A stretch of DNA of 21,613 nt, taken from NCBI GenBank assembly GCA_900754535.1, contig CAAEDF010000284.1, forward strand, positions 1-21,613, given 5' to 3'. The notes under the pieces were generated by a model. That model did not search any database. It had not been told where the DNA came from and saw nothing but the letters and a program-made list of their open reading frames with translations. Origin of the DNA: Clostridia bacterium (GTDB lineage Bacteria; Bacillota; Clostridia; Oscillospirales; CAG-382). The position numbers were made by a program, and so were the translations under genes. Shown in pieces: positions 1,410 through 18,350 of this stretch (position 1 is the first letter of the stretch; every line of letters begins with the position of its first letter).

Positions 1410-1929
1410 CACGCGCGACATAAAAAGCTGGGCCGGAAAGGTACGCGCCGGAGACGAGATACTGCTTTCCGGTGTCGTTTATACCGCGCGTGACGCGGCG
1501 CACAAGAAAATCGCCGCGCTGCTTGCCGACGGCGCGCCGCTTCCGTTTGATATCGCCGGCGCAGTGATATATTACGCGGGGCCGACGCCGGCGAAGCCCG
1601 GCGCGGTATGCGGCTCGTTCGGCCCGACAACAAGCTGCAGGATGGATTCGTTTGCGCCCGCGCTTTACGATCTCGGCCTCGGCGCAACGATAGGCAAGGG
1701 CGGCAGGAGCGAAGCGGTGAACGAAGCCATAGCGCGCAACGGCGCGCTGTATCTGATAGCGATAGGCGGCGCCGGCGCGATAGCGGCAAAGCATATAGTC
1801 TCACTTGAGGAGACAGCTTTCGAGGAGCTGGGCTGTGAATCGATAAAACGGCTTGAGTTTGCAAGCTTCCCGCTTATCGTAGCCACCGACTCGCACGGGA
1901 ACGATATATACAAACGTGAAAGGATCTGA
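1393..1929 (+). CDS. Class I fumarase/tartrate dehydratase beta-subunit-type hydro-lyase (orphan)
   Basis: This is a 178-residue protein starting at ATG 1393, with AGGAGG at 1377-1382, a 10-base spacer. It matches the C-terminal (beta) domain of [4Fe-4S] class I fumarases and L(+)-tartrate dehydratases: GDEILLSGVVYTARDAAHKK near residues 16-35, YYAGPTPAKPG, the GSFGPTTSCRMD block, GKGGRSE and the late FPLIVATDSHGNDIY segment. Length fits a stand-alone beta subunit (family about 180-200). In the two-subunit enzymes it pairs with an alpha subunit carrying the iron-sulfur cluster, hydrating fumarate to malate; the alpha gene is usually adjacent. None is here: upstream is a DivIVA-like gene whose end it overlaps, downstream a dipeptidase. 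Either the alpha gene is elsewhere or this is a beta-like paralog with another partner. Family assignment is strong; the reaction is inferred. Confidence 0.88.
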   Translation: MTGTYDTRDIKSWAGKVRAGDEILLSGVVYTARDAAHKKIAALLADGAPLPFDIAGAVIYYAGPTPAKPGAVCGSFGPTTSCRMDSFAPALYDLGLGATIGKGGRSEAVNEAIARNGALYLIAIGGAGAIAAKHIVSLEETAFEELGCESIKRLEFASFPLIVATDSHGNDIYKRERI

Positions 1930-1936
1930 TCATATA

Positions 1937-3328
1937 ATGTCGGACATACAAGCCGTAAAGGCAGAGCTTGACGCTTTTCTGGGCAGGCCCGAAATAAAGG
2001 AATCCATGGTGCGCGACCTTGCGCGCATCGTCGCCATACCGAGCGTAAAGGGCGAGCCGAGCGAGGGACACCCGTTCGGTGACGAATGCGCACGCGCGCT
2101 TGATGAGGCGCTGGAGATGGGCAGGGAATATGGATTTGAAACCGAGAACCACGACTACTACTGCGGAAGCATAATATACGGTGACAGCGAGCAGGAAATG
2201 GGCATAGTCGTACATCTGGACGTCGTTCCCGCAGGCGACGGCTGGGACGCCGACCCGTTTATGCTGCGCCGCGACGGCGATATGCTTATCGGACGCGGGA
2301 CCGACGACGACAAAGGACCCTTTATAACCGCGCTTTATACGCTGCGCTTTCTTAAGGAGACGGGAAAAAAGCTTCCGTTTTCCGTGCGGATAATACTCGG
2401 CTGCGACGAGGAAAGCGGATGCAGCGATCTTGAGCACTTTGCGTCGGTAAGAAAGATACCCTTTTTCTCGTTTACGCCCGATTCGGAATACCCCGTAGGC
2501 ATCGGTGAAAAAGGCATGTACGGCTTTGACGTCGTGCTTGACTGCGGCGGCATAGAGCTTTCGGGCGGAAGCGCGCCGAATGCCGTGGCGGCGTCCGCGT
2601 CGGCAAAGCTGCGCTTTCCGGTCGACGCCTCGACTTTGCCGTATGACGACCGCATAACCGTCGAGACCGACAGCACCTCCGCCGTCATAACCGCCGAGGG
2701 CATAAGCGCACACGCGGCAATGCCGGAAAACGGCGCCAATGCGATAGGCATCCTCTGCTCGTATCTCATATCCGCCGGGCTGTCCGACAGCCCCGCAGTC
2801 AAATTCCTTGCCGAAAGCTGTACCGACTATCTCGGCAAAGCGTTCGGGATAGACTGTGCGGACGACAAGTTCGGCCCGCTGACCTGCATCGGATCGATGG
2901 TTGGGACAAAGGACGGCAAAACGGTTCAGAACTATAACGTCAGATATCCGATATCGGCCGATATAAATGCGATGCGCGCCGTGATAGCCGAAAAGGCGGC
3001 CGCACTGGGAGGCAGCGTTGAAAACGAAAGCATAAGCGAAGGATACTACAAGGACCCTGACAGCGACGAGATAAAAGCGCTCACCGAAGCCTGCGAGGCC
3101 GTGCTGGATATCCCGTGCGTGCCGTACACGATGGGCGGCGGGTCCTACGCGCGCCATATGCGCGACACCGTTGTATTCGGAGCCGGGATACCTTCGATGC
3201 GCGGACTGCGCGGAGAGGGCAAGGGCGGCCCGCATGAAAACGAGGAATATTTTACCGTGACCGAGCTTGAAGCCGGAGTGAGGATATTTGCGCTTTCCGT
3301 GCTCAACATAGCCCGTAAGCGCTGTTGA
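1937..3328 (+). CDS. pepV: PepV-type M20 metallodipeptidase
   Basis: This is a 463-residue protein. ATG 1937 is preferred; an in-frame GTG at 1916 overlaps the preceding gene, and AAAGGA at about 1918-1923 precedes 1937 by 13 bases. M20/PepV hallmarks are in order: HLDVVPAGDGWDADPF (first metal His and Asp near 93-95), GRGTDDDKGP (bridging Asp region), the catalytic/metal ILGCDEESGCSD segment, TPDSEYPVGIGEKG, a lid domain (about 180-360), GGGSYARHM and the C-terminal HENEEYF with a metal His. The family hydrolyses dipeptides with free N-termini in the cytoplasm using two zinc ions, releasing amino acids from imported peptides. Length matches typical PepV (about 465-470). It is the last gene of the cluster, 7 bases after the fumarase-like gene, and is followed by a strong terminator at 3368-3411. 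A carnosinase-like or Xaa-His specificity cannot be excluded. Confidence 0.93.
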   Translation: MSDIQAVKAELDAFLGRPEIKESMVRDLARIVAIPSVKGEPSEGHPFGDECARALDEALEMGREYGFETENHDYYCGSIIYGDSEQEMGIVVHLDVVPAGDGWDADPFMLRRDGDMLIGRGTDDDKGPFITALYTLRFLKETGKKLPFSVRIILGCDEESGCSDLEHFASVRKIPFFSFTPDSEYPVGIGEKGMYGFDVVLDCGGIELSGGSAPNAVAASASAKLRFPVDASTLPYDDRITVETDSTSAVITAEGISAHAAMPENGANAIGILCSYLISAGLSDSPAVKFLAESCTDYLGKAFGIDCADDKFGPLTCIGSMVGTKDGKTVQNYNVRYPISADINAMRAVIAEKAAALGGSVENESISEGYYKDPDSDEIKALTEACEAVLDIPCVPYTMGGGSYARHMRDTVVFGAGIPSMRGLRGEGKGGPHENEEYFTVTELEAGVRIFALSVLNIARKRC

Positions 3329-6568: not shown

Positions 6569-8815
6569 TCAATCGTCGTATTCGGATTCGAAATCGATCA
6601 CCGCACCCGTAGCCGCGTTGATCTCCGCCTCATATTCGGTGTTTCCGTACCTGAACTCTACTTCATATATGCTTCTTCCGTCATCGAAATCAAGCTCCAC
6701 TTTGGTAAAAGTGACCTGCGATACCGAAAGTCCGGCGCGCTCAGCCGCTTTTGCCTTCGCCTCGTCTGCGCTTATGATGCCGTCCTGTGTGCCGCCGGGA
6801 ACATAGTCGTCATTTCTCTCGGATTCGTATTTTATCACGCTGCCGGTCGAAGCGTCTATCTCCACGCTGTATTCGACTCCGTTGCACACGAATTCAGTAT
6901 CATAGACCTTTCTGCCGTCGTCCACGTCAAGCTCGACCTTGGTGAATGTCACCTGCGAAACGGTAAGCCCCGCGCGCTCGGCCGCCTTGGCCTTCGCCTC
7001 GTCGATGCTTATAATCGTTTCCTGGCCGGCGGACGGGAGCTCCTCGCGGTCCTCCTCGTACTTCACTATCGCGCCGGTAGACGCATTGACTTCGACGTCG
7101 TATTCGGTGTTGCCGTACACAAATTCTATTTCATATACGGTTCTGCCGTCGTCGCTGTCAAGTTCGACTTTGGTAAAGATGACCTGAGATGCATTCAGGC
7201 CGGCGCGTTCGGCGGCTTTGGCCTTTGCGTCATCGATGCTTATAAGGGTTTGCTGATTGCCGCCGGTGCCGCCGTTACCGACTGTCTCGGTCTCGTATTT
7301 CACTATTTCGCCGGTAAGAGCGTCTACTTCTATTTCGTACTCGGTGCCGTCGCATACAAACTCTATCTCATAAAGCGCTCTGCCGTCGTCATTGTCAAGC
7401 TTCACAAAATGTTTTACCACCTTATCGGAAGCAAGTCCTGCGCGCTCCAGCGCTTTGGCATATGCAGACTCGGAATTGATATATTCGTTCTGAGAAGGAT
7501 TCGTGGTGGGGATATGGAAGCCCTCTATTTCCATATCATAGCTGAGGATCGCGCCGGTGACGGCGTCTATTTCAAAATCGTATTCCGTTCCGTTGATATA
7601 AAACTCAATGTCATATTCCATACGACCGTCGTCTTCACCGAGCTGTGCACGGACAAAGATCACATCCGACGCCGACACACCGGCCGCCTTGAGGGCGATA
7701 TCCTTCGCCTGAGCAGTCGTAAGATAAGTGCCGGTCTGATCGCTGCCTGCGGAAGGGAGCTTTAACGCATCCTTTTCGGCATGGATAACGGAACCGGTAA
7801 ACGCATCCACCTCATACTCATATTCATCGGTATCCGTCAGAAATTCTATCTCATATCTCGTGCGTCCGTCGTCACTGTCGAGTTTGAACTCGGTTACGGT
7901 TACGGCATCGGCGGAGAGAGACGCGTGCTCAAGGGCGGCCGAAAGCGCCTGATCCTGAGTTATATACTGATCCACGGAACCTGTCGCACCGACTATGCCG
8001 GAGATGTCAAGCTCTTCGTCGGAAACAAGCTTCGTGATGTTCCAAAGGCTCATGGAAGCGAGCGAAGAAACGTCGAGCGACGGATATTTATCGCTGATCC
8101 CCTTTATAAGAGCCGCTTTGCCGTAGGTTATCGAAAGACTTTCGGCAAGCGAAGAGATATCGGCCTGCTCGCTGTTATACACGCTGTCAAGTATAACGGC
8201 ATTGACGCCGGAATTCTGCATGGCGGAATTTATGCCGCCGGACAACGAAGAAACAAGCTGCTGAGAACGTGCGTCGTCCTCACAGATAACCGAAACAAGT
8301 ATCCGTCCGTCGGTGCCGACAAGATATCCGTTTCTGACCATGGAGCCCGTTATTGCGTTGACGGCAAGCTCAAGGTCTGCACCGACAAGCTCCATATCGC
8401 CGATCACCGTCTGGCCCTCCGGATTGAGCGCGCGCACGGCTATGACCTTATCCGTCGGATCTGCGGTCAGTTCTATTCCGGGGTTGACGTCTATTGTGAT
8501 TATCGTGTTGCCTTCATAAATAGGCGAAGTGCTCTCGGTACCGGACACCGCAGGCGAGGAAGACTCGCCGGACGGCCCGGTAATATCGGAATCACGCGAA
8601 AGTATCAGCGTTGCGGCAAGTGCGCTCACGCATATACAAACGGCAAGCACAACCGCTATCATACGGCCGGTGGTGCGCCTGCGAGGTGCGCCGGGAAGCG
8701 GCGACGATGCCTTTCCGACCCTCTCGGAGGAAACGCTTTCGTAAATATCCGGAGTTATTTCGGAAACGGCCCTGTCAAGGTCCTTCCGTATCTTGATTTT
8801 GCCAAATTTTTTCAT
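6569..8815 (-). CDS. RsgI-like membrane anti-sigma protein with six PepSY domains
   Basis: This is a 748-residue protein; ATG 8815 is preceded by GAAAGGA about 11 bases upstream and lies 27 bases after the ECF sigma gene. Residues 1-50 are basic and presumably cytoplasmic (FGKIKIRKDLDRAVSEITPDIY). One membrane segment spans about 52-72 and a Ser/Gly-rich linker about 75-100. Residues ~103-275 resemble the extracytoplasmic RsgI-type domain (ITIDVNPGIELTAD, VIAVRALNPEGQ). Six PepSY-like units follow near 284-348, 363-427, 444-508, 523-587, 600-664 and 679-743, each with a KA.ERAGL-like helix, DDGR, YEIEF and a VDAxTGxI strand. Placement next to a sigma factor and topology argue for a regulator holding the sigma until an outside cue; sensing by the PepSY array is inference. 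No zinc-binding anti-sigma (ZAS) motif is visible in the short N-terminus. Confidence 0.85.
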   Translation of the reverse strand: MKKFGKIKIRKDLDRAVSEITPDIYESVSSERVGKASSPLPGAPRRRTTGRMIAVVLAVCICVSALAATLILSRDSDITGPSGESSSPAVSGTESTSPIYEGNTIITIDVNPGIELTADPTDKVIAVRALNPEGQTVIGDMELVGADLELAVNAITGSMVRNGYLVGTDGRILVSVICEDDARSQQLVSSLSGGINSAMQNSGVNAVILDSVYNSEQADISSLAESLSITYGKAALIKGISDKYPSLDVSSLASMSLWNITKLVSDEELDISGIVGATGSVDQYITQDQALSAALEHASLSADAVTVTEFKLDSDDGRTRYEIEFLTDTDEYEYEVDAFTGSVIHAEKDALKLPSAGSDQTGTYLTTAQAKDIALKAAGVSASDVIFVRAQLGEDDGRMEYDIEFYINGTEYDFEIDAVTGAILSYDMEIEGFHIPTTNPSQNEYINSESAYAKALERAGLASDKVVKHFVKLDNDDGRALYEIEFVCDGTEYEIEVDALTGEIVKYETETVGNGGTGGNQQTLISIDDAKAKAAERAGLNASQVIFTKVELDSDDGRTVYEIEFVYGNTEYDVEVNASTGAIVKYEEDREELPSAGQETIISIDEAKAKAAERAGLTVSQVTFTKVELDVDDGRKVYDTEFVCNGVEYSVEIDASTGSVIKYESERNDDYVPGGTQDGIISADEAKAKAAERAGLSVSQVTFTKVELDFDDGRSIYEVEFRYGNTEYEAEINAATGAVIDFESEYDD
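6587..7966 (-). repeat. Tandem PepSY-domain coding repeats (six units)
   Basis: Six consecutive units of about 65 residues, spaced about 76-81 residues apart, encode residues 284-743 of the anti-sigma-like protein. Units 4-6 (covering about 6587-7249) are nearly identical over the helix and first strand: the run KAKAAERAGL recurs in all three, as does FTKVELD. Units 1-3 are more diverged. This points to recent duplication at the C-terminal end. Confidence 0.88.
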
Positions 8816-8842
8816 AAATAATTCCGTCCTTTCAGGTGCCTT

Positions 8843-9442
8843 TTACCCCGCTGCCGTTCTTATTCCGGCGTCGGGCGCATTAAGGATGTTCTTCAATTTC
8901 TTGATTGCACGGTTATATTTTGACAGAACCGTGGAAAGGGGAAGTTCAAGAAGCTGTGCGATCTCTCTGTGCTTCAGCCCGCTTACGGCGTGAAGCATGA
9001 CTATCTGGCGTTCGTCTTCGCCCAGACCGTTCATGGCGGACTCGAGGACGAGCCTGCCGTCATGATCGGTCACGCAGGAAAACGAGATGTCGTCCTCGAG
9101 CCGGCCAAGCTCGGCATATCTCGATTTCTCGCGAAGCTTCATAAGGCAAAGATTCCTTGTTATGGTGAACAGCCATGCCATCGGCTTGCCTCTGCCCTCA
9201 TACAGATGAGCGCACGACTTGAGCTTGATATAAGTGTCGTGCAGAGCGTCCTCGGCATCGTATCTGTCCTTGAGTATCGACAACGCAAAGCCGAACAGCG
9301 GCTTTGCGGTCGCCTCATACAGTATACGGAACGCCTCGTTGTCGTCTTCGCCTATTCTTTTTATGATATCGTCATCCACAGCCGAAAGCCCGTTGCGCTC
9401 GTCGCGGTAGGAGCTTTCCAAAGCAACCAGTAAAAGCAGCAT
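8843..9442 (-). CDS. ECF-type RNA polymerase sigma factor
   Basis: This is a 199-residue protein; ATG 9442 has AAAGGGG 8 bases upstream and is preferred over an in-frame GTG at 9460 that overlaps that site. Region 2 (about 25-90) is visible in EAFRILYEATAKPLFGFALSILKD, then the core-binding DAEDALHDTYIKL and the promoter-melting AWLFTITRNLCLMKLR. After a linker, region 4 (about 140-190) gives LGEDERQIVMLHAVSGLKHREIAQLLELPLSTVLSKYNRAIKKLK in pieces, a helix-turn-helix that would read the -35 element. Regions 1 and 3 are absent, the ECF definition; this is not the SigI type that usually pairs with RsgI proteins. It is followed after 27 bases by the RsgI/PepSY protein, very probably its regulator, with both ending at the 6456-6506 terminator. 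Target promoters are unknown. Confidence 0.93.
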   Translation of the reverse strand: MLLLLVALESSYRDERNGLSAVDDDIIKRIGEDDNEAFRILYEATAKPLFGFALSILKDRYDAEDALHDTYIKLKSCAHLYEGRGKPMAWLFTITRNLCLMKLREKSRYAELGRLEDDISFSCVTDHDGRLVLESAMNGLGEDERQIVMLHAVSGLKHREIAQLLELPLSTVLSKYNRAIKKLKNILNAPDAGIRTAAG

Positions 9443-9547
9443 TCGCTTTTCCCCTTTCACTCAAATAATGCACAAGATACACGTTTTATCGCACGGACGG
9501 AAATTTTTTTTACAAGCGCCGTATTTTGAGCATTTGCAACAAAGCTA

Positions 9548-9661: not shown

Positions 9662-10054
9662 TCAGATAAGGTCATCCGCCGTTTCTTCCGCCTCTGCGTC
9701 CTCCGCGCCCATAAATTCCCTGCTTGTGATACGCTTTTTTTCACGCTGCTGCTCGACCATGTCGGACAGCATGTCTTTTACTTCTTTTGACTTCTTTATG
9801 TGCAGCAGGTCGAATTCCGGTGTGGATTTATCAGCGGAGCAGCAATGGACCGTACCGAGTCCGCACAGACGCTCCCAGAATTTACGCTTGAGCGTCACAT
9901 CCATTATCCTGTAAAGCCTGACCTCATCTTCCCGCGTGCTGAACACGCCGGTTTTGATGTAAAGCTTCTCCTCCGTAACGGAATACTTTGTAAACGTCCA
10001 CGGCAATCCGAAAAAAATGCGTTTTCTGTCTTTCCATACACAGTTTTCTTCCAT
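9662..10054 (-). CDS. Bacterial PH-domain (DUF304/bPH_2-like) protein
   Basis: This is a 130-residue protein; AAAGGAG lies 11 bases before ATG 10054. Residues ~5-90 match the bacterial pleckstrin-like bPH_2 pattern: WKDRKRIFFGLPWTFTKYSVTEEKLYIKTGVFSTREDEVRLYRIMDVTLKR in pieces, with the characteristic Y-T/S-x-T-x-x-R/K-L-x-x-x-x-G strand and E-x-x-L-Y-R-I-x-D-V that follows, then FWERLCGLGTVHC (G-x-G-T/D-I core). The tail (95-130) is charged and acidic, with REKKRIT and EDAEAEETADD. No membrane segment is seen, unlike YdbS/YdbT proteins where this domain follows membrane helices. The biochemical role of such soluble single-domain versions is unknown. It has its own promoter and terminator, so it is probably not part of the sigma operon downstream. 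Confidence 0.85.
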   Translation of the reverse strand: MEENCVWKDRKRIFFGLPWTFTKYSVTEEKLYIKTGVFSTREDEVRLYRIMDVTLKRKFWERLCGLGTVHCCSADKSTPEFDLLHIKKSKEVKDMLSDMVEQQREKKRITSREFMGAEDAEAEETADDLI

Positions 10055-10138: not shown

Positions 10139-10247
10139 TAAATACATATTTTTTTTACAAAGCGACACGGCACCCGGTCATGCGCCGGAGTGGAAACGGT
10201 TGAAAAACAACGGTTCGGGCAGAATGCCCGGGAAAGGTAAAGTATCC

Positions 10248-12785
10248 ATGAAAAAAATGCTGGCTGTTATCCTCGCGCTTACGTTGATTCTGCCTATGGC
10301 GTGTATAAGCTCATCGGCAGAATACGCAGGCTACGACCGGTTGGACGGTTGTGAGAACATTTTTCTTTCCTACACCTTCAACTGCAACAACTGGAGCTAC
10401 GGCAGACGCACCGTCGAAGGGTACGAGCCGCTTGTCGGTTATTACGATACCGACGGCGATCTCATCGACACCTTTTTCGACACGTTTCTGTTCCTTCCCT
10501 GCGTCACCACCACACCGAGCGGCGGAAGGACCTATCGCGACAACAACCATCCCTCCAACTTTTCCGACTGGCAGGCGTTCGTTGACGATGTTTTCCTTGA
10601 CGGCTACAATATAAAAGCGCTCAACGAAGCGGTAGTCGACATGAAGGCGCAGCTTGGAGAGGAATACGACGACTACAAGGCAAAGGTGTTCCTGACAAGT
10701 CTGTACCCCGTAAGAACTCAGACAAATTTCGGAGACGTTGACGAAGACGGGGTCACGGAAAATTTCAGCCTGCTTGCCGACCGCCAGAAAGCCATCAAAT
10801 GGATAATTGACGAGCAGCTTTCCAGATACAGTGCGGGAAATTTTGAAAATCTTGAGCTTATCGGCTTTTACTGGTTCGAGGAGGATTTTGCTTCGTCCGA
10901 CCCGCACGAAAACAGTCTGTTCACCTATTTCAATTCGTACGTCCATTCGCTGGGCTACAAAACCATATGGATTCCTTATAACGGCGCCAACGGCTATAAC
11001 CGCTGGGAGGAGCTTGGATTTGACGTCGCCTGCTATCAGCCCAACTACATGTTTGTTTCCTCCGCCACCGCGCAGCGCGTTGCAGACACCTGCGACACGG
11101 CAAAGCAATTGGGCATGTGCGTTGAGATGGAAATATCCGGTCAAGCGCTTACCTCGGCTGAATATTACAACAGATATATGGATTATCTGAGAATATGCAC
11201 GGAAAAGGGCGCCTCAAGTGCGATAAAAATGTATTACAACGACGGAGTTAACGGAGTATACTACAACGCCTTCAACTCCTCCGACCCGCTGCTGAGAAAA
11301 ATATACGATCTGACGTATAAATACAGCAAAGACATACTTGAACCGGAGGAATGCCAAAAGATCTCGGTACAACGTCCGGAGATGTTTTACGACATAATAT
11401 CCGTCGGCTGTGATTACACCGCCTCAGCGCCGTATACGAATTCCGACGCGGGTTACGCGAACATCGACGGACACGAGCTGACCGATGGAGTCTTCGGCTC
11501 CTCCGATTTCGGAACCGAATGGTACCCCTTCCACATATCGAATATCGAAGACGACGGATTTTATTATATAGACCTTGATCTCGGAATGATATACGATGAC
11601 ATCCGCTTCTTTGCGCTTGAACTAAAAAACGACCCGGCATCGGGGATAAGTCTGCCGGACTATGTTGAATTTTATTTCTCCGAAGACGGATCGCAATATT
11701 CGTCGGCGGGAAGAATAAGCAATCTGACAGATTTCACGCTGTCAAGCCCGTCGGCCGTCCTTGAGACAGACGAGCCCGTGAGCGCAAGATACATAAAAGT
11801 AAAGCTGGCGCCCGGGGATCTGAATTTTCTGTTTGCCTCGGAGCTGTCGGTCGGCGTAAAGCCGTCCTCGATTTATGACGCCGGCGGATATACAAACGTT
11901 TCCTGGAAGAAATCATATGATTCCACTCGCGCATATACCGATACGATGGTCGAATACGCCGATGTGAGCGGATATGAGCTTACCGACGGGATATACAACG
12001 ACGGAAACGCGCTTTCGACCGCCTGGCACGCTTTCCACACTTCATACGCCGAAAACGGAAAATATTATGTGACCGTCGATCTCGGAGGAGAAGTGACCGG
12101 GCTTTCGCGGTTCGTGATGGAATTCGCATATATGCCAAGCGCATCCATAGGGCTGCCGGGCAACGTCGAATTCTTTGTATCCGACAACGGCACCTCGTTC
12201 ACGTACGTCGGCAACGCCGTGCCGCAGGCTACGGGTACCGGCACATATGCGGCGAAGCTTGACACCGAGCCATGCACGGGACGTTATGTAAAAGCGGTGT
12301 TTGACACCGGTAACCTTCATTTTGTATTTGCGGACGAGTTTTACATCGGTTCGGCAAACGACCCCGAAGTCTTCCCCGTTCCCAATGCACAATCAGGCTA
12401 TGTGCTTGTAGAGGATCTGCAGATTTGCAAGCTCATATACAGCGGCACGAGCGTTGCCGAATTTACCGGCGCCTTTGATGCCGGTATCACGATAACCGAC
12501 AGCACCGGAAAAGCGAAAGATGCTTCCGACGTCGTTTGCACCGGAGACAGAGCGGTTTATACCGCTCCATCCGGCAAACGGCTTGTGATGGCTCTTTCGG
12601 TTACGGGCGACACGAACGGAAACGGAACGGTTACGGTGACCGATTATCTGACGGCAAAGCGCATACTGCTCGGACTTGGCGAATATGCGCCGGCTGCGAT
12701 TGCGGCGGCGGATTTCAATACCGACGAACGGCTGAACGCCGTGGACTGCCTGCTTATAAAGCGCACCGTTCTCGGCCTGAGCTGA
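10248..12785 (+). CDS. Secreted DUF4855 protein with two discoidin-like domains and a type I dockerin
   Basis: This is an 845-residue protein from ATG 10248, chosen because AAAGG precedes it and a signal peptide begins there (KK, hydrophobic 4-20, cleavage near SSA-EYA). Residues ~30-365 look like DUF4855, a glycosidase-like fold with aromatic-rich, acidic segments (GFYWFEEDF 206-214, WIPYNGANGYNRW, CYQPNYMF, EMEISGQAL). Two related beta domains of about 150 residues follow (about 390-536 and 555-701), each with ELTDG, YY.. DLG, LP..VEF..S, RY.K and the FA.E strand, the F5/8-type C pattern. Residues 787-845 are a dockerin: two calcium loops, D788/N790/N792/D799 and D822/N824/D826/D833, each followed by a KR helix ending LGL. 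This implies secretion and attachment to a cohesin scaffold or to a cell-surface cohesin. DUF4855 activity is not known; a carbohydrate target is inferred. Confidence 0.88.
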   Translation: MKKMLAVILALTLILPMACISSSAEYAGYDRLDGCENIFLSYTFNCNNWSYGRRTVEGYEPLVGYYDTDGDLIDTFFDTFLFLPCVTTTPSGGRTYRDNNHPSNFSDWQAFVDDVFLDGYNIKALNEAVVDMKAQLGEEYDDYKAKVFLTSLYPVRTQTNFGDVDEDGVTENFSLLADRQKAIKWIIDEQLSRYSAGNFENLELIGFYWFEEDFASSDPHENSLFTYFNSYVHSLGYKTIWIPYNGANGYNRWEELGFDVACYQPNYMFVSSATAQRVADTCDTAKQLGMCVEMEISGQALTSAEYYNRYMDYLRICTEKGASSAIKMYYNDGVNGVYYNAFNSSDPLLRKIYDLTYKYSKDILEPEECQKISVQRPEMFYDIISVGCDYTASAPYTNSDAGYANIDGHELTDGVFGSSDFGTEWYPFHISNIEDDGFYYIDLDLGMIYDDIRFFALELKNDPASGISLPDYVEFYFSEDGSQYSSAGRISNLTDFTLSSPSAVLETDEPVSARYIKVKLAPGDLNFLFASELSVGVKPSSIYDAGGYTNVSWKKSYDSTRAYTDTMVEYADVSGYELTDGIYNDGNALSTAWHAFHTSYAENGKYYVTVDLGGEVTGLSRFVMEFAYMPSASIGLPGNVEFFVSDNGTSFTYVGNAVPQATGTGTYAAKLDTEPCTGRYVKAVFDTGNLHFVFADEFYIGSANDPEVFPVPNAQSGYVLVEDLQICKLIYSGTSVAEFTGAFDAGITITDSTGKAKDASDVVCTGDRAVYTAPSGKRLVMALSVTGDTNGNGTVTVTDYLTAKRILLGLGEYAPAAIAAADFNTDERLNAVDCLLIKRTVLGLS

Positions 12786-12837: not shown

Positions 12838-13794
12838 ATGGATATATGTGTAAGGATACTTGACGAAGTCAAAAAAGCCATAATAGGCAAGGACGCCGTT
12901 ATACTCAAGGTATTTGCCGCCATGCTTGCGGGAGGCCACATACTGCTGGAGGACATCCCCGGCGTGGGAAAAACCACTCTTGCGCTTGCTTTTTCCAAAG
13001 CAATGTCGCTTGATTACAGCCGAGTACAGTTCACTCCGGATATACTTCCGTCGGACATAGTGGGTTTTTCGGTCCCGGAACGCGAAAGCGGCAGGATGAT
13101 ATACAAGCGCGGCGCCGTGATATGCAATCTTTTTCTTGCGGACGAGCTGAACCGCGCCACCAGCAGAACGCAGTCCGCGCTGCTTGAGGCAATGGAGGAA
13201 AAGCAGGTCACCGTGGACGGTATTTCACATCCCCTTCCCGATCCGTTCATCGTCATTGCCACTCAGAACCCCGTGGGAGCGGCGGGCACACAGCTGCTGC
13301 CCGATTCGCAGCTGGACAGATTTACTGTAAAGCTTTCCATCGGATACCCCGACCGTCAAAGCGAGACCGCAATGCTTAAAGAACACCGCTCAAACGCGGT
13401 CGATACCGTTTCTCAGGTCATTGACGCGGACGGACTTGCACGGCTTCGCAGGTCGGTCTCACAGGTATACATTGCCGACAGCATATATGATTATATCGTC
13501 GCCTCCGTGGCCGCAACACGCTCTCACCCTTTGATACTGCGAGGTGCGAGCCCACGCGCATCGATAGCGCTCGCTTCGACGGCGCGCGCAATGGCATGGA
13601 TACACGGAAGGGATTACGTCGTGCCGGAAGATATGGACTCGATTTATATCGACTGCATGTCTCACCGCGTATTGCTCTCCCCGGAGGGGGAGGAGCGCCC
13701 GGGAGGCGCCGCCGCAGTGCTCGGCTCGGTTTTGAGAAGTATCCCCAAGCCGGCGATTGCCTTGCCGCAGAACTCCCGTTACATGAAAGGCTGA
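12838..13794 (+). CDS. MoxR-type AAA+ ATPase
   Basis: This is a 318-residue protein; ATG 12838 has GGAGAG about 8 bases upstream. Family landmarks are Walker A (DIPGVGKTT, 39-47), the segment QFTPDILPSDIVGF (64-77), Walker B (LFLADELNRA, 98-107), SALLEAMEE (113-121), sensor 1 (VIATQNP, 139-145), GTQLLPDSQLDRF and sensor 2 (GASPRASIAL). MoxR ATPases act as chaperone-like machines in the cytoplasm, typically assisting a DUF58 partner encoded next door. The DUF58 start lies 5 bases after this stop, matching the canonical MoxR-DUF58-transglutaminase operon. The DUF4855-dockerin gene ends 52 bases upstream on the same strand with no hairpin between, so read-through is possible. The client is unknown. 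Confidence 0.95.
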   Translation: MDICVRILDEVKKAIIGKDAVILKVFAAMLAGGHILLEDIPGVGKTTLALAFSKAMSLDYSRVQFTPDILPSDIVGFSVPERESGRMIYKRGAVICNLFLADELNRATSRTQSALLEAMEEKQVTVDGISHPLPDPFIVIATQNPVGAAGTQLLPDSQLDRFTVKLSIGYPDRQSETAMLKEHRSNAVDTVSQVIDADGLARLRRSVSQVYIADSIYDYIVASVAATRSHPLILRGASPRASIALASTARAMAWIHGRDYVVPEDMDSIYIDCMSHRVLLSPEGEERPGGAAAVLGSVLRSIPKPAIALPQNSRYMKG

Positions 13795-13799
13795 TGCAC

Positions 13800-14864
13800 A
13801 TGGCCGGCAGATGGTGCATATATATCCTAACGCTTATCTGCGCATTTGTCTTTTTCGGGGCGTACACCGAATATCTCTCGTATTACATTCTCATGACCGT
13901 GGTGCTGTTTCCGATCTTTTCGCTGCTCGTCAGCCTTTGGGGGATACTGTCCGTAAGGCTCAGGCTGTTTTCTCCAAGCAGGGTAACGGCTGCAGGAGAG
14001 GCCGGTGCGGCACTGATAGAGATTACGTCAAGCTGCCCCGTGCCGGTATTTTCGGCATATATAGAATATGAGACAAACGACATTACCTTCGGGCAGTTTT
14101 CGGTGCACGAAAAGCTTAAGCTTTTCGGAGCAAAGAGACTGACCGTGCCTTTGCGCGCAGATTTTGAACATATGGGAGCCGTGCATATCAAAATAAGGAA
14201 AATTCGCATTTATGACCTATCCGGACTTTTTTGTTTCGGGATAGCGCCGCCGGCGGAGCAAACGGTTACAGTGCTTCCCCGGCCGGTAATGCAGGTGCCC
14301 TTCCCCGCGCTGCCGTCGGGAGAAATATCGGGTCGGAACATACGTCCGAAGCCGGGAGGAGGCTTTGCGGAAGAGCACGACATACGGCTGTACCGCATCG
14401 GCGACCCGATAAACTCCGTTCACTGGAAGCTCAGCGCAAAGCTTGACGAGCTTGTGGTGCGCGAGCCGCTTATATCGGATAAAGGGGTGCTTGCCGTGTT
14501 CATAGACATTTTCGGCACACGCGACGAACTGGAGATATCGTTCGGCAAGCTGCTTTGCGTGGGCAGGGAGCTTATCGGAAGGGCGCTTGAATTCAGGATA
14601 TGCTTTTACGGCAGCGACGGTTTGCCCGAAAGCCTGACTGTTGTCTCCGAAAGCGACCTTGTCGCTTTTTTCGCCGCCGCGTTCCGCAGCCCAATACCGG
14701 AAAAAGGAAAAAGCTGTGCGAATCTGTGCGCAAAATCCAAAGCCGATTCGGCCTGCTGGTGCTGGTACGCCTCCGCTGCCGCGAACGATCCGCAAGCAGA
14801 AGACGACGCCGCTTCCGCTGACGGCGAACCGGGTTCCGCACGCACAACCGGTGGCGCATCATGA
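13800..14864 (+). CDS. DUF58 protein with N-terminal membrane anchor
   Basis: This is a 354-residue protein. ATG 13800 has AAAGG (13786-13790) 9 bases upstream; ATG 13794, overlapping the MoxR stop as TGATG, has a 3-base spacer only. The N-terminus carries two hydrophobic stretches (about 6-22 and 29-51). Residues ~60-170 are beta-rich. The DUF58 signature runs 194-223: DIRLYRIGDPINSVHWKLSA then LVVREP, with an invariant HWK. A vWA-like half follows (VLAVFIDIFGTRDELE; the DxSxS metal site is DIFGT here). The tail (about 295-354) is Cys/Ala/Glu-rich and looks disordered. DUF58 proteins partner with MoxR ATPases at the membrane. Its stop overlaps the next gene in ATGA, so the two are coupled. 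The altered vWA metal motif is common in this family. Confidence 0.92.
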   Translation: MAGRWCIYILTLICAFVFFGAYTEYLSYYILMTVVLFPIFSLLVSLWGILSVRLRLFSPSRVTAAGEAGAALIEITSSCPVPVFSAYIEYETNDITFGQFSVHEKLKLFGAKRLTVPLRADFEHMGAVHIKIRKIRIYDLSGLFCFGIAPPAEQTVTVLPRPVMQVPFPALPSGEISGRNIRPKPGGGFAEEHDIRLYRIGDPINSVHWKLSAKLDELVVREPLISDKGVLAVFIDIFGTRDELEISFGKLLCVGRELIGRALEFRICFYGSDGLPESLTVVSESDLVAFFAAAFRSPIPEKGKSCANLCAKSKADSACWCWYASAAANDPQAEDDAASADGEPGSARTTGGAS

Positions 14865-17218
14865 GGGCGGTATCTTATATCGGCCGCTCGGCCGCCGATA
14901 CGTTTATTCTTCTTTCGGGCGTGGCCGGCATTACATTTTCGCTTATAAGCGCCTATTCGTTTCCCGCTGACGACGGCGCCGTGCTTTTGAGCTGCATTCT
15001 TTTCTGCTTGTTATACTCGTTCATATTCAATCTGCGCGGAAGGATTTTTTCGGCTGCGGCCGTGCTGCTTTCGCTCGGTGCCGCCGCAGTATTTTACGAA
15101 CGGATCATAAACGCCTTCAAGGGCTTTTTGTATCTGATGCTGTTTATGTGGAACGAGCTTGCGCGGATAAACATAAGCACTGATTTTATCAAATGCAGTT
15201 ATGCCACGGCCGCGGAACGGACGGAGGACTTTTTTATAATACTGCCCGCGCTGCTTGCGCTGGCGGCGGGATTCTTTATAATACGTCTGAAGCGCTTTAT
15301 CCCGGCGCTGGCCGTTATCGCGCCGTTTGCGGCGTGCTGCTTTGTAACCATAGAAACCATACCGGATATAACGGCGTTTTCATTTTTCATGGCGTTCTGC
15401 GTCATATGCGCGCTGACCATGCGTTCGAGGAAGGGCCCGTCGCCCGCATATGCGAGAGTGACTGCCGCGCTCACACCGGCCGTGGCGCTGCTTTTGTTTT
15501 TTGTGCTTACGGTTTTTCCTCAGGCAGGATTTACCCGCCCGCCTGCCGCGGACAGGATGTTTGCCTTTATAGATTCGCTTGTTGCGCTCCGGCGCGACAA
15601 CAGCTCTTCGGCAAGCCTGCCGTCCGGGACCTCAGGCGACAACTCATACACACAGCCCCCGTTGGGTTTTGAAATGAACCCGCTGCCGCTTACGGGTATC
15701 GACGCGCCCGAATATACGGGGGAAACCGTATTTTTGATAGATACCGATTACACGGGCCAGCTTTTGCTGCGCGGCTATTCTTTGGGGGATTATACGGGCC
15801 GGCAATGGGAGGTTCCCGCGTACGGCGTCCCGGAAATTGCTTCTCCCGGCACGCTTTTCTCGCTTTCGTCCTCATGGACGGATGCGGCGGTGCGGGCCGT
15901 TGACGGAACAAACGAATATTTTTTCGGCATATACCCGTCGTCATCGTTTGCCGAGAACGGATCGGAAATAATGTTTACCCCGTATTTTACCGACCGTGCG
16001 GCGTTCACTACCGTTTTCGACAGCGACTGCATGACGCTGGTTAACAAAGGAATGCCGTACTCAGGCTATTTTGCGGTGCCGCAAAGCATGTGGGAACTTA
16101 CCGACGTGCATGTCGCTTCCGGCGGAGAACCTGAGAGCATTTTTGCCGAATACGAAGCGCATACGGCTCAATACTACCTTAATATATCCGACTCTCTTGC
16201 CGAATTCCTGCGCGATTACGCGAAAAGCCGATCGCCGTACATAGACGGGATGACCGGGCGCGCTCTTGCGGAGGAGATAGCCGGCATCATAATGAACGGC
16301 GCGGAATATAATAATATGGTAGAAGCATATCCTCAAAACGAGGATTTCGTGCTTTATTTCCTTAACGAATCCCGTGAGGGCAGGTGCGTGCATTTTGCCA
16401 CCGCCGCGACTCTTATGTACCGTGCGTTCGGGATACCCGCGCGCTTTACGGTCGGTTACGCGGCGCCTGTCTACGGCGGAACGGCTGATGTGTACGACAA
16501 ATACGCGCACGCATGGACCGAAATATTCGTCAGCGGCATCGGCTGGGTGCCGGTTGACGCCACTCCGCCTCTGTATCCCGGCGCATATCATCCGGTAATC
16601 ACGCCGGGTGAGGACAGCACGGCAGTGTCGGAAAATCTTTCCGAAGACCTGTCGGGCGGATTGATAGAAGATATTTCGGGAAACATTTCCGGAACGGTCT
16701 CCCATGAATTTTCGTCAGAAGTCTCGTCCGAGGTATCCTCCGGGGATTCCTCTGCCGTCAGCACCGACAGTTCTCTTCCCGGCGAATCCTCCGCCTCATC
16801 GGCCTCCGAGCCCTCTTCACCGTCGGCGGGACCGCCCGCGGATACGGGAGGCATAAAAATACCCGATTATGTATATGCGATCATCACCGCGGCGGTGCTA
16901 ATTGCCGCTCTAATCGTTTTAACGGTGCTTCGCAGGCGGGCGGCCGGTGCAAAACGCGAACGGGCGTTTTCGCAGTCTGACGGAAGCCTGGCGGCTCTTG
17001 CCGCGTGGAAATACATAACCGCGCTGTCGGCATACGGGGTAAAGCCTGCCGAACGGATATACTTCCTTGCGCAGAAGGCTGCGTTCAGCCACCACACGCT
17101 TACCGCCGAGGAAGCGGGCGAGGTAACGGCGTTTGCACGGGCAAGTGCGGCAAAGGTAGATTCGGAGCTTAAGTTTTTAGGAAAATTTGTATTCAGATAC
17201 ATAAAAGCCTTGTACTGA
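14861..17218 (+). CDS. Membrane-bound transglutaminase-like (TgpA-type) protein
   Basis: This is a 785-residue protein whose ATG overlaps the DUF58 stop (ATGA). The N-terminal 1-220 holds about six membrane segments (10-33, 40-57, 62-80, 125-142, 148-164, 171-187, 204-220). An extracytoplasmic part (225-665) contains the transglutaminase core with the triad Cys509 (REGRCVHFATAATLMYRAFG), His550 (YAHAWTEIFV) and Asp566 (GWVPVDATP). Residues 585-665 are a Ser/Glu-rich linker, then one membrane segment (669-690) and a cytoplasmic basic domain (691-785). The layout fits the TgpA/DUF3488-transglutaminase family, which acts on surface proteins or wall peptides; the donor and acceptor are unknown. 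The N-terminus diverges from DUF3488. It ends the operon; only a weak hairpin (17315-17332) follows. Confidence 0.92.
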   Translation: MRAVSYIGRSAADTFILLSGVAGITFSLISAYSFPADDGAVLLSCILFCLLYSFIFNLRGRIFSAAAVLLSLGAAAVFYERIINAFKGFLYLMLFMWNELARINISTDFIKCSYATAAERTEDFFIILPALLALAAGFFIIRLKRFIPALAVIAPFAACCFVTIETIPDITAFSFFMAFCVICALTMRSRKGPSPAYARVTAALTPAVALLLFFVLTVFPQAGFTRPPAADRMFAFIDSLVALRRDNSSSASLPSGTSGDNSYTQPPLGFEMNPLPLTGIDAPEYTGETVFLIDTDYTGQLLLRGYSLGDYTGRQWEVPAYGVPEIASPGTLFSLSSSWTDAAVRAVDGTNEYFFGIYPSSSFAENGSEIMFTPYFTDRAAFTTVFDSDCMTLVNKGMPYSGYFAVPQSMWELTDVHVASGGEPESIFAEYEAHTAQYYLNISDSLAEFLRDYAKSRSPYIDGMTGRALAEEIAGIIMNGAEYNNMVEAYPQNEDFVLYFLNESREGRCVHFATAATLMYRAFGIPARFTVGYAAPVYGGTADVYDKYAHAWTEIFVSGIGWVPVDATPPLYPGAYHPVITPGEDSTAVSENLSEDLSGGLIEDISGNISGTVSHEFSSEVSSEVSSGDSSAVSTDSSLPGESSASSASEPSSPSAGPPADTGGIKIPDYVYAIITAAVLIAALIVLTVLRRRAAGAKRERAFSQSDGSLAALAAWKYITALSAYGVKPAERIYFLAQKAAFSHHTLTAEEAGEVTAFARASAAKVDSELKFLGKFVFRYIKALY

Positions 17219-17588
17219 CGCATCGTCCAAGCCCGGCGCTGTCCGTCCCGCAACCGCATATGCAGGCGTTATGCGATAACATCCGGCTATCCGGCATTAG
17301 AGACCTATCTTAAATCCCGCGCTGAGGCGGGACATTATACCCTTTTGCTTATGCGGACATTATTTTTGATGCCGCTTATGCGGCGTCTAAGGACTGCCGA
17401 GGAGCTTTGTTTACTGTTTTGACACGTTTTTTGCTTTTTATATACACAATTTGGGTATATAGTAGTTAAACTGCTTGTTTTATGCTTTTTTGTACACATA
17501 AAACGCGGTTTTTCCGGACTAAACTTACCGGTACCGATATATCTTCGTTCTATGATGTATCGTCCATTCCAAAGAAATGAGGAAATGT
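17219..17588 (+). other. Intergenic region with a weak hairpin and AT-rich promoter zone
   Basis: This stretch of 370 bases has no convincing gene. It holds a 6-bp hairpin (TCCCGC 17315-17320 with GCGGGA 17327-17332) without a good T run, a second hairpin (17371-17384), the 10-base direct repeat GCTTATGCGG twice (17347 and 17374 region), and an AT-rich promoter zone beginning near 17410. A - strand open frame at 17335-17601 looks spurious. Confidence 0.6.
17419..17446 (+). promoter_or_regulatory. Putative promoter for the lytic transglycosylase gene
   Basis: TTGACA at 17419-17424 and TATACA at 17441-17446 are separated by 16 bases. Transcription would start near 17453, giving a leader of about 136 bases to the ATG at 17589. 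The -35 is exact consensus and the -10 has one mismatch. Confidence 0.6.
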
Positions 17589-18350
17589 ATGAGAAACTCA
17601 AAAAAACGATGGATACGGGTGTTACCGAATATGGTTTGCATTTTACTTGTTTTTATAATGCTCTACACTGTTTCCGTCACTATCGGTTCTGGTTCCGGCG
17701 CCACAATGCCGGACGCACAGAACGCACAAACCGCCGTTGCTATGCCCGAACTCGGAGGGCTTGACGGCGTACTGTCCGATTCGGGAGAAGACGAAGCCAT
17801 TTTCGCCGCTTCCGACGATAGGCTTGAAAACAACACCGTGATGAGCAACGAACAGCTCTCACATTCGGCGCTTATGGGGTTTGACAGCGGGTTTTATCGT
17901 TATACCTACTGCTATTACACCGACGGCAGGCATGACATCGAGCTTTCGGAAGAGCTTCAGCTTCACACTTTCCGTATGGCGCAGGAATATGACGTTCAAT
18001 ACGAAATGGTGATGGCCATCATGGGCGTTGAATCCGGATGGGACGAGGATGACCGTGGCAACGGCGTTTTCGTAGGGCTTGGGATGATATATATCGCACA
18101 GCTTGGCGAGCTTGGTCAGATTGGGATAACCGATCTGTACGACCCCAAGCAGAACATCGAGGCGATATGTTATTATCTGCGCTACAAGCTCGACCTGGTC
18201 GGCGGCAACGAGCACATGGCGCTTATGTGCTACAACATGGGCGACGCGGGCGCTGCTGCTTACTTTGACGAGGGCGTATATCAGACCGCCTATTCCCGCA
18301 AGGTCATAGCTTTCAGAGATTCCATGATAAAAATAAAAATGGGCATCTGA
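17589..18350 (+). CDS. Membrane-anchored lytic transglycosylase (SLT-like) protein
   Basis: This is a 253-residue protein. ATG 17589 is chosen because GAGG sits 6 bases upstream, while ATG 17577 lacks a ribosome site. A membrane anchor or uncleaved signal spans about 12-32 after a basic start (RNSKKRWIR). Residues 33-95 are a low-complexity acidic linker. Residues ~120-245 resemble a goose-lysozyme/SLT fold: MAIMGVESGWDEDD (142-155) places a catalytic Glu at 148, then NGVFVGLGMIYI, DPKQNIEAICYYLRYKL (185-201) and LMCYNMGDAGA (212-222), like the SLT YNxG motif. Such enzymes cleave peptidoglycan glycan strands to 1,6-anhydro-MurNAc. The motif after VESGWD (GLGMI in place of G.MQI) is unusual, so activity is likely but unproven. 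It is expressed as a single gene between a promoter and a strong terminator. Confidence 0.85.
   Translation: MRNSKKRWIRVLPNMVCILLVFIMLYTVSVTIGSGSGATMPDAQNAQTAVAMPELGGLDGVLSDSGEDEAIFAASDDRLENNTVMSNEQLSHSALMGFDSGFYRYTYCYYTDGRHDIELSEELQLHTFRMAQEYDVQYEMVMAIMGVESGWDEDDRGNGVFVGLGMIYIAQLGELGQIGITDLYDPKQNIEAICYYLRYKLDLVGGNEHMALMCYNMGDAGAAAYFDEGVYQTAYSRKVIAFRDSMIKIKMGI

Follow-up and report, generated by a model that had tools for sequence, protein, structure and literature searches.

The window analysed here is a stretch of 21,613 nucleotides from a Clostridia bacterium (assembly GCA_900754535.1, contig CAAEDF010000284.1). It carries adjacent genes for an extracytoplasmic function (ECF) sigma factor and an RsgI-like membrane protein with six PepSY domains. 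The pair is best explained as a surface-signalling system, in which the sigma factor would be restrained by a self-cutting anti-sigma protein of the SEAL type with a PepSY array as its outer part (probability about 0.72). The computed part of this explanation is supported. It comprises a conserved sigma/anti-sigma gene pair, a promoter-like element, a SEAL domain with a D-V-N-P site by the membrane and a PepSY array beyond it, and the recurrence of that promoter signature ahead of some PepSY genes in relatives. The features of the pair are as follows.

9466..9493, minus strand: predicted sigma-dependent operon promoter, TGCGATAAAA-N12-GCATTA, with the -35-like end at 9493 and the -10-like end at 9466
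8843..9442, minus strand: ECF sigma gene, ATG start at 9442, alternative GTG at 9460; Sigma70_r2, Sigma70_r4_2 and TIGR02937
6569..8815, minus strand: gene for the RsgI-like anti-sigma protein with PepSY array, 748 amino acids; assigned from Pfam and its conserved place after the sigma gene
8717..8815, minus strand: cytoplasmic head, residues 1-33, two predicted helices flanking a conserved proline (P21)
8606..8665, minus strand: transmembrane helix, residues 51-70, from the AlphaFold2 (AF2) helix and hydropathy
8030..8509, minus strand: RsgI_M / SEAL domain, residues 103-262
8483..8488, minus strand: N110-P111, predicted self-cleavage site in the loop joining the first two strands
6581..7960, minus strand: six tandem PepSY domains, residues 286-745, from six Pfam stretches and the model

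Domains, predicted structure and proposed mechanism

The sigma protein has only regions 2 and 4. Sigma70_r2 and Sigma70_r4_2 exceeded the Pfam cut-offs, TIGR02937 (sigma70-ECF, NCBIfam) scored 83.2 bits against a cut-off of 42.9, and the nearest PDB chains were solved ECF sigma factors. The open reading frame (ORF) spans 8843-9460 on the minus strand if the GTG start is counted. The promoter-like element at 9466-9493 stops 5 nucleotides before 9460, and ATG 9442 is therefore preferred as the start, as had been chosen in a preliminary description made from the sequence alone.

In the 748-amino-acid protein, PepSY (PF03413) was found in six stretches (E 1.4e-64, 214.7 bits, above the cut-off), and RsgI_M (PF23750) matched residues 105-238 with 74.2 bits against a curated cut-off of 25.3. 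The Pfam and NCBIfam searches thus confirmed the earlier claim of an ECF sigma factor with an RsgI-like regulator carrying six PepSY domains. The central region, whose relation to RsgI had been named as a point on which that claim could fail, is RsgI-like by both sequence and predicted fold. No Pfam match to RsgI_N (PF12791) was seen on the protein at E values of up to 1. The zinc-binding anti-sigma (ZAS) motif H-x3-C-x2-C, noted earlier as missing from the N-terminus, was indeed absent from all 81 protein heads examined, including that of the window. Class I (ZAS/four-helix) ECF anti-sigma factors also have zinc-free members. An acidic C-terminal tail is present in some homologs, but was rejected as a family trait with 1/81 at the chosen cut-off. 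PF27330, listed for relative P0001, was not among the matches of the local Pfam search.

The AlphaFold model of the full-length protein had a mean predicted local distance difference test (pLDDT) score of 81 and a predicted template modelling score of 0.39, the latter giving no information on the arrangement of the domains. Two helices precede the membrane helix (pLDDT about 57-70); those of the head, residues 2-19 and 24-33, were modelled at low pLDDT. The head is presumed to be the sigma-binding part. The most hydrophobic stretch of 19 residues begins at residue 53. Strands 103-108 and 112-117 of the SEAL domain enclose N110-P111, and the D-V-N-P sequence was invariant in 24/24 aligned proteins. 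Self-cleavage at this position is predicted from characterised RsgI proteins, and the predicted fold of the domain matches solved RsgI periplasmic domains. The PepSY region was modelled as six repeats, each of one helix and four strands, and the units are visible in the DNA as repeats spaced 231-243 nucleotides. Their predicted fold matches YpeB (5boi; Foldseek), in a search where many of the matches of the full-length model were unrelated beta-rich proteins.

In the proposed mechanism, the short head would hold the sigma factor at the membrane, and could clasp it in the manner of CnrY. The SEAL domain would cut itself between N110 and P111, with the two halves remaining associated. The outer half may be lost once something binds, pulls or displaces the PepSY array; a site-2 protease of the RasP/RseP type would next cut the membrane helix and a cytoplasmic protease of the ClpXP type would remove the head. 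The freed sigma factor would then activate the operon that encodes it and also, in certain relatives, genes for secreted PepSY proteins. Because the cleavage site is of the SEAL type, loss of a pre-cut outer half is the more economical trigger. Signalling could instead begin with a regulated site-1 protease, the PepSY array being a sensor that faces peptides or proteases, in the direction of the proteolytic or peptide-related cue considered earlier. PepSY was originally reported as an inhibitor that acts intramolecularly on M4 peptidases, according to the available text of PMC10653890, and the PepSY/M4 propeptide 9vy3 was among the sequence matches. Such a scheme has no need of the D/E-x-N-P site and SEAL fold, which were nevertheless kept in 92/92 ECF-PepSY proteins, and the only peptidase gene found in the near neighbourhood was that of an M20 peptidase at 1916-3328. 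A start by site-1 cleavage is accordingly judged improbable.

Conservation of the pair and survey of RsgI_M proteins

A genome scan gave 447 relatives, 80 loci of which are the basis of the pair counts. In 79 of these, a sigma gene related to that of the window comes immediately before the anti-sigma gene, in the same orientation (truncated by the contig end in L045), and the remaining locus, L046, has a divergent ECF sigma. The pairing, proposed earlier from adjacency, is therefore conserved in 80/80 loci in other genomes, and a chance adjacency of the two genes was rejected on this ground. The proteins carry 2 to 7 PepSY domains (81 proteins, own repeat model).

RsgI_M was present in 109/291 genomes of the class to which G005, the genome of locus L036, belongs. 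Among 150 distinct RsgI_M ORFs, drawn from the strongest matches listed and with sigma-class shares biased accordingly, the sigma partner was SigI for 93, an ECF sigma for 35 and unassigned for 22. The sigma class was confirmed by NCBIfam for five representatives each, and one ECF case, L046, comes from the 80 loci. Four loci (L227, L228, L239 and L242) had no RsgI_M ORF by our own model and stand outside the 150. The ECF partner, earlier considered unusual for an RsgI-type protein, is thus real, but its rarity had been put too strongly, as 35/150 RsgI_M proteins adjoin ECF sigmas.

RsgI_N was found in 90/93 SigI-linked, 0/35 ECF-linked (E up to 0.01) and 9/22 unassigned proteins. PepSY showed a different distribution, with 0/93, 13/35 and 4/22, respectively, and CBM_3 was present in 15/93 of the SigI-linked proteins. 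Head type and sigma class go together, i.e. the head is swapped with the sigma class. An ordinary SigI/RsgI system was rejected for the window, as the partner is not SigI and the protein has no RsgI_N. On the tree inferred for 146 SEAL domains, 8 changes of sigma class were required, compared to a mean of 34 after shuffling, and at least 2 changes were forced by supported branches. From these 8 changes, the SEAL stalk appears to have been joined to different sigma classes more than once. Head distances, calculated from 85 aligned heads anchored on the conserved proline, tracked sigma distances beyond the share of the SEAL domain (partial r 0.29, 0/999 permutations, 85 close pairs), in Mantel-type tests that are inflated by shared descent.

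These observations also bear on the view that the genes are merely neighbours and that the PepSY protein sits at the surface but does not act as an anti-sigma factor. Relative P0003 does carry the source label 'cell wall protein', but the adjacency, the head swap and the head-sigma correlation leave this view very little probability.

Several variants were observed in the survey. L230 (ECF) has D-V-N-Q and L210 (SigI) has D-T-D-P in place of D-x-N-P, and both are possible non-cleaving forms. Tandem RsgI_M genes occur at L174, L184, L231, L243, L245 and L248, perhaps as two anti-sigma factors for one sigma. A lipoprotein-like protein (L375:1523-2554) combines RsgI_M with one PepSY domain, and has neither a sigma-type head nor a membrane helix in the usual place.

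Promoter signature and its occurrence before PepSY genes

The -35 element of ECF promoters usually has an AAC core, which is missing from the signature (TGCAATAAAA / GCATTA) described here. The element TGCAATAAAA-N12-GCATTA, at 13 or more of 16 bases, was found 5' of the sigma gene in 75/91 loci with a spacing of 12 in all 75. The window copy has 15/16 consensus bases, with one mismatch to the 15-base pattern, and gave the best position weight matrix (PWM) score in the window, 26.3; it is followed by AAAGGGG and ATG 9442. The lowest score among the 75 elements, 17.4, was used as a threshold, and was reached in 76/91 ECF-PepSY loci and in 5/5 close sigmas with a PepSY-free partner (two of them nearly identical), and in 0/19 remote ECF genes and 0/94 SigI genes. 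The signature therefore marks this sigma subfamily, as autoregulation would predict. Together with the 80/80 adjacency, the promoter-like element may reflect ECF autoregulation with the anti-sigma gene in the operon.

A search of 50 genomes gave 54 sites with at most one mismatch, compared to 12 for the reversed pattern, and 40 of the 54 were identical to elements 5' of a pair's sigma gene. A second pattern gave 52 sites against 6 reversed in 44 of these or related genomes. Inspection of 29 distinct non-self sites (14 + 14 + 1) revealed four that precede genes with 2 to 5 PepSY domains and no RsgI_M (L066/L282, L286, L290 and L390; Pfam), whose products have a signal-peptide-like start as judged by eye. 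By chance, 0.006 of the 29 sites would be expected at PepSY genes (p 6e-11), on the assumption that a genome has 2300 genes, about 0.5 of them such PepSY genes; with a tenfold higher PepSY gene frequency, p was 5e-7. An exact copy of the pattern was also seen before a gene for a metallo-beta-lactamase-fold membrane-anchored protein (L280:1076-1997, G315), and 8/14 sites of one inspected set lie inside reading frames of at least 150 codons. A gene for 99 amino acids that follows a site in G007 (L415) resembled PepSY on visual inspection, but had no Pfam PepSY match and was not counted.

PepSY genes outside the pair were found at 28 loci in 55 genomes, 15 of them of the PepSY type of the window; four of these have a strong site and one (L388) a variant site. 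Twelve of the 28 loci had been missed by our own PepSY model and were scanned whole, giving no site (best 11.2). The variant of a given genome tends to recur in its sigma and PepSY-gene promoters (GGATTA in G015, GCAATA in G310 and GCATAT in G001), with a less exact likeness in G314 and G007. Among 120 permutations of sigma with PepSY promoters, the real combination came out best, in a post hoc test on five pairs. It is conceivable, though rather doubtful, that the sensor is self-referential. The PepSY array would then sense an extracellular layer or complex that contains PepSY proteins, and the regulon would supply these from a promoter without the AAC core, in one feedback circuit. One further protein (L389:242-2095, minus strand) has six PepSY domains after a type I dockerin, and its gene has no site in the 300 nucleotides upstream.

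The window itself holds a candidate second site:

17272..17299, plus strand: possible second sigma-dependent site, 278 nucleotides 5' of a transglycosylase-like gene at 17577-18350

This site has 2 mismatches and a PWM score of 19.0, and shares with the sigma promoter the window-specific TGCGATAA start. The downstream gene encodes an SLT transglycosylase-like protein (Pfam). Chance alone would give about 0.07 such sites, so the site may be taken as a lead only. A divergent gene at 10227-12785 encodes DUF4855, two F5/8 type C stretches and a type I dockerin (Pfam), which hints that a surface system using dockerins may lie close to the pair. It was rejected as a sigma target, the best PWM score in the window beyond the two sites being 10.3. 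A gene for a small bPH_2 protein (9662-10054) precedes the sigma gene in the same orientation, and genes for MoxR-type AAA, DUF58-like and transglutaminase-core proteins stand in a row at 12838-17218.

The transglycosylase lead is relevant for the possibility that the ligand of the PepSY array is the cell wall, or a complex that synthesises it, in an envelope-stress system where wall damage pulls or frees the ectodomain. The PepSY proteins CopD, TseB and YpeB act with wall synthesis or wall-lytic enzymes, as stated in the available part of PMC10653890. Against this, the lead aside, no wall genes turned up behind the signature; the near-exact sites are followed by PepSY genes and the one metallo-beta-lactamase-fold gene. 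Wall binding has a substantial chance of being correct, if somewhat less than an even one, and it refines the best explanation without contradicting it.

Several results weigh against the pair as a self-cutting signalling system with a PepSY regulon, the inflation of the head-sigma tests among them. The promoter element was absent in 16/91 loci. Non-self sites other than those at PepSY genes were near the level of the reversed-pattern controls (12 and 6). Ten of the 15 window-type PepSY genes outside the pair had no site, and neither had the 13 loci of other PepSY types (best PWM 11.2). PepSY genes in genomes without RsgI_M had a site in 0/6 cases, a difference that was not significant in this small sample (p 0.28). 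Finally, the PepSY ectodomain of CopD did not bind the transpeptidase domains of penicillin-binding proteins that were tested, according to the accessible text of PMC10653890.

Relation to known systems

The window protein resembles the RsgI proteins of the SigI/RsgI systems of Bacillus subtilis and Clostridium thermocellum in its single membrane helix, its SEAL domain with D-x-N-P, its C-terminal sensor modules and the position of its gene after the sigma gene. It differs in the two-domain ECF partner, the lack of RsgI_N and the PepSY ectodomain; SigI/RsgI systems have carbohydrate-binding, glycoside hydrolase (GH) or other modules. Sigma24C of C. thermocellum is presumably an ECF factor. The available text of PMC3990059 lists sigma24C-Rsi24C among the RsgI-like membrane anti-sigma pairs, and the combination of an ECF sigma with an RsgI-like protein is thus not new as such. 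By description in the same text, the Rsi24C ectodomain resembles GH5, a glycan module, unlike the PepSY array found here. Class II ECF anti-sigma factors are CnrY-like, with a two-helix head that clasps sigma2 and sigma4. CnrY itself clasps its ECF sigma with a short two-helix head (PMC7406223, available part), and by description the short head of the window protein, with its two low-confidence predicted helices, may be similar. The PepSY repeats lie outside, as in YpeB, TseB and CopD, which are not described as anti-sigma factors in the portion of PMC10653890 at hand. In the literature searched, which covered few subscription journals, no description was found of an RsgI-like PepSY anti-sigma factor, of this promoter, of the head-class rule or of the link between the signature and PepSY genes.

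The survey shows the SEAL stalk in use with two different sigma classes, and each class comes with a head of its own. The concrete promoter signature makes the regulon of a clostridial ECF family testable. If the proposed system is true, PepSY arrays, the role of which is poorly understood, would gain a place in signalling.
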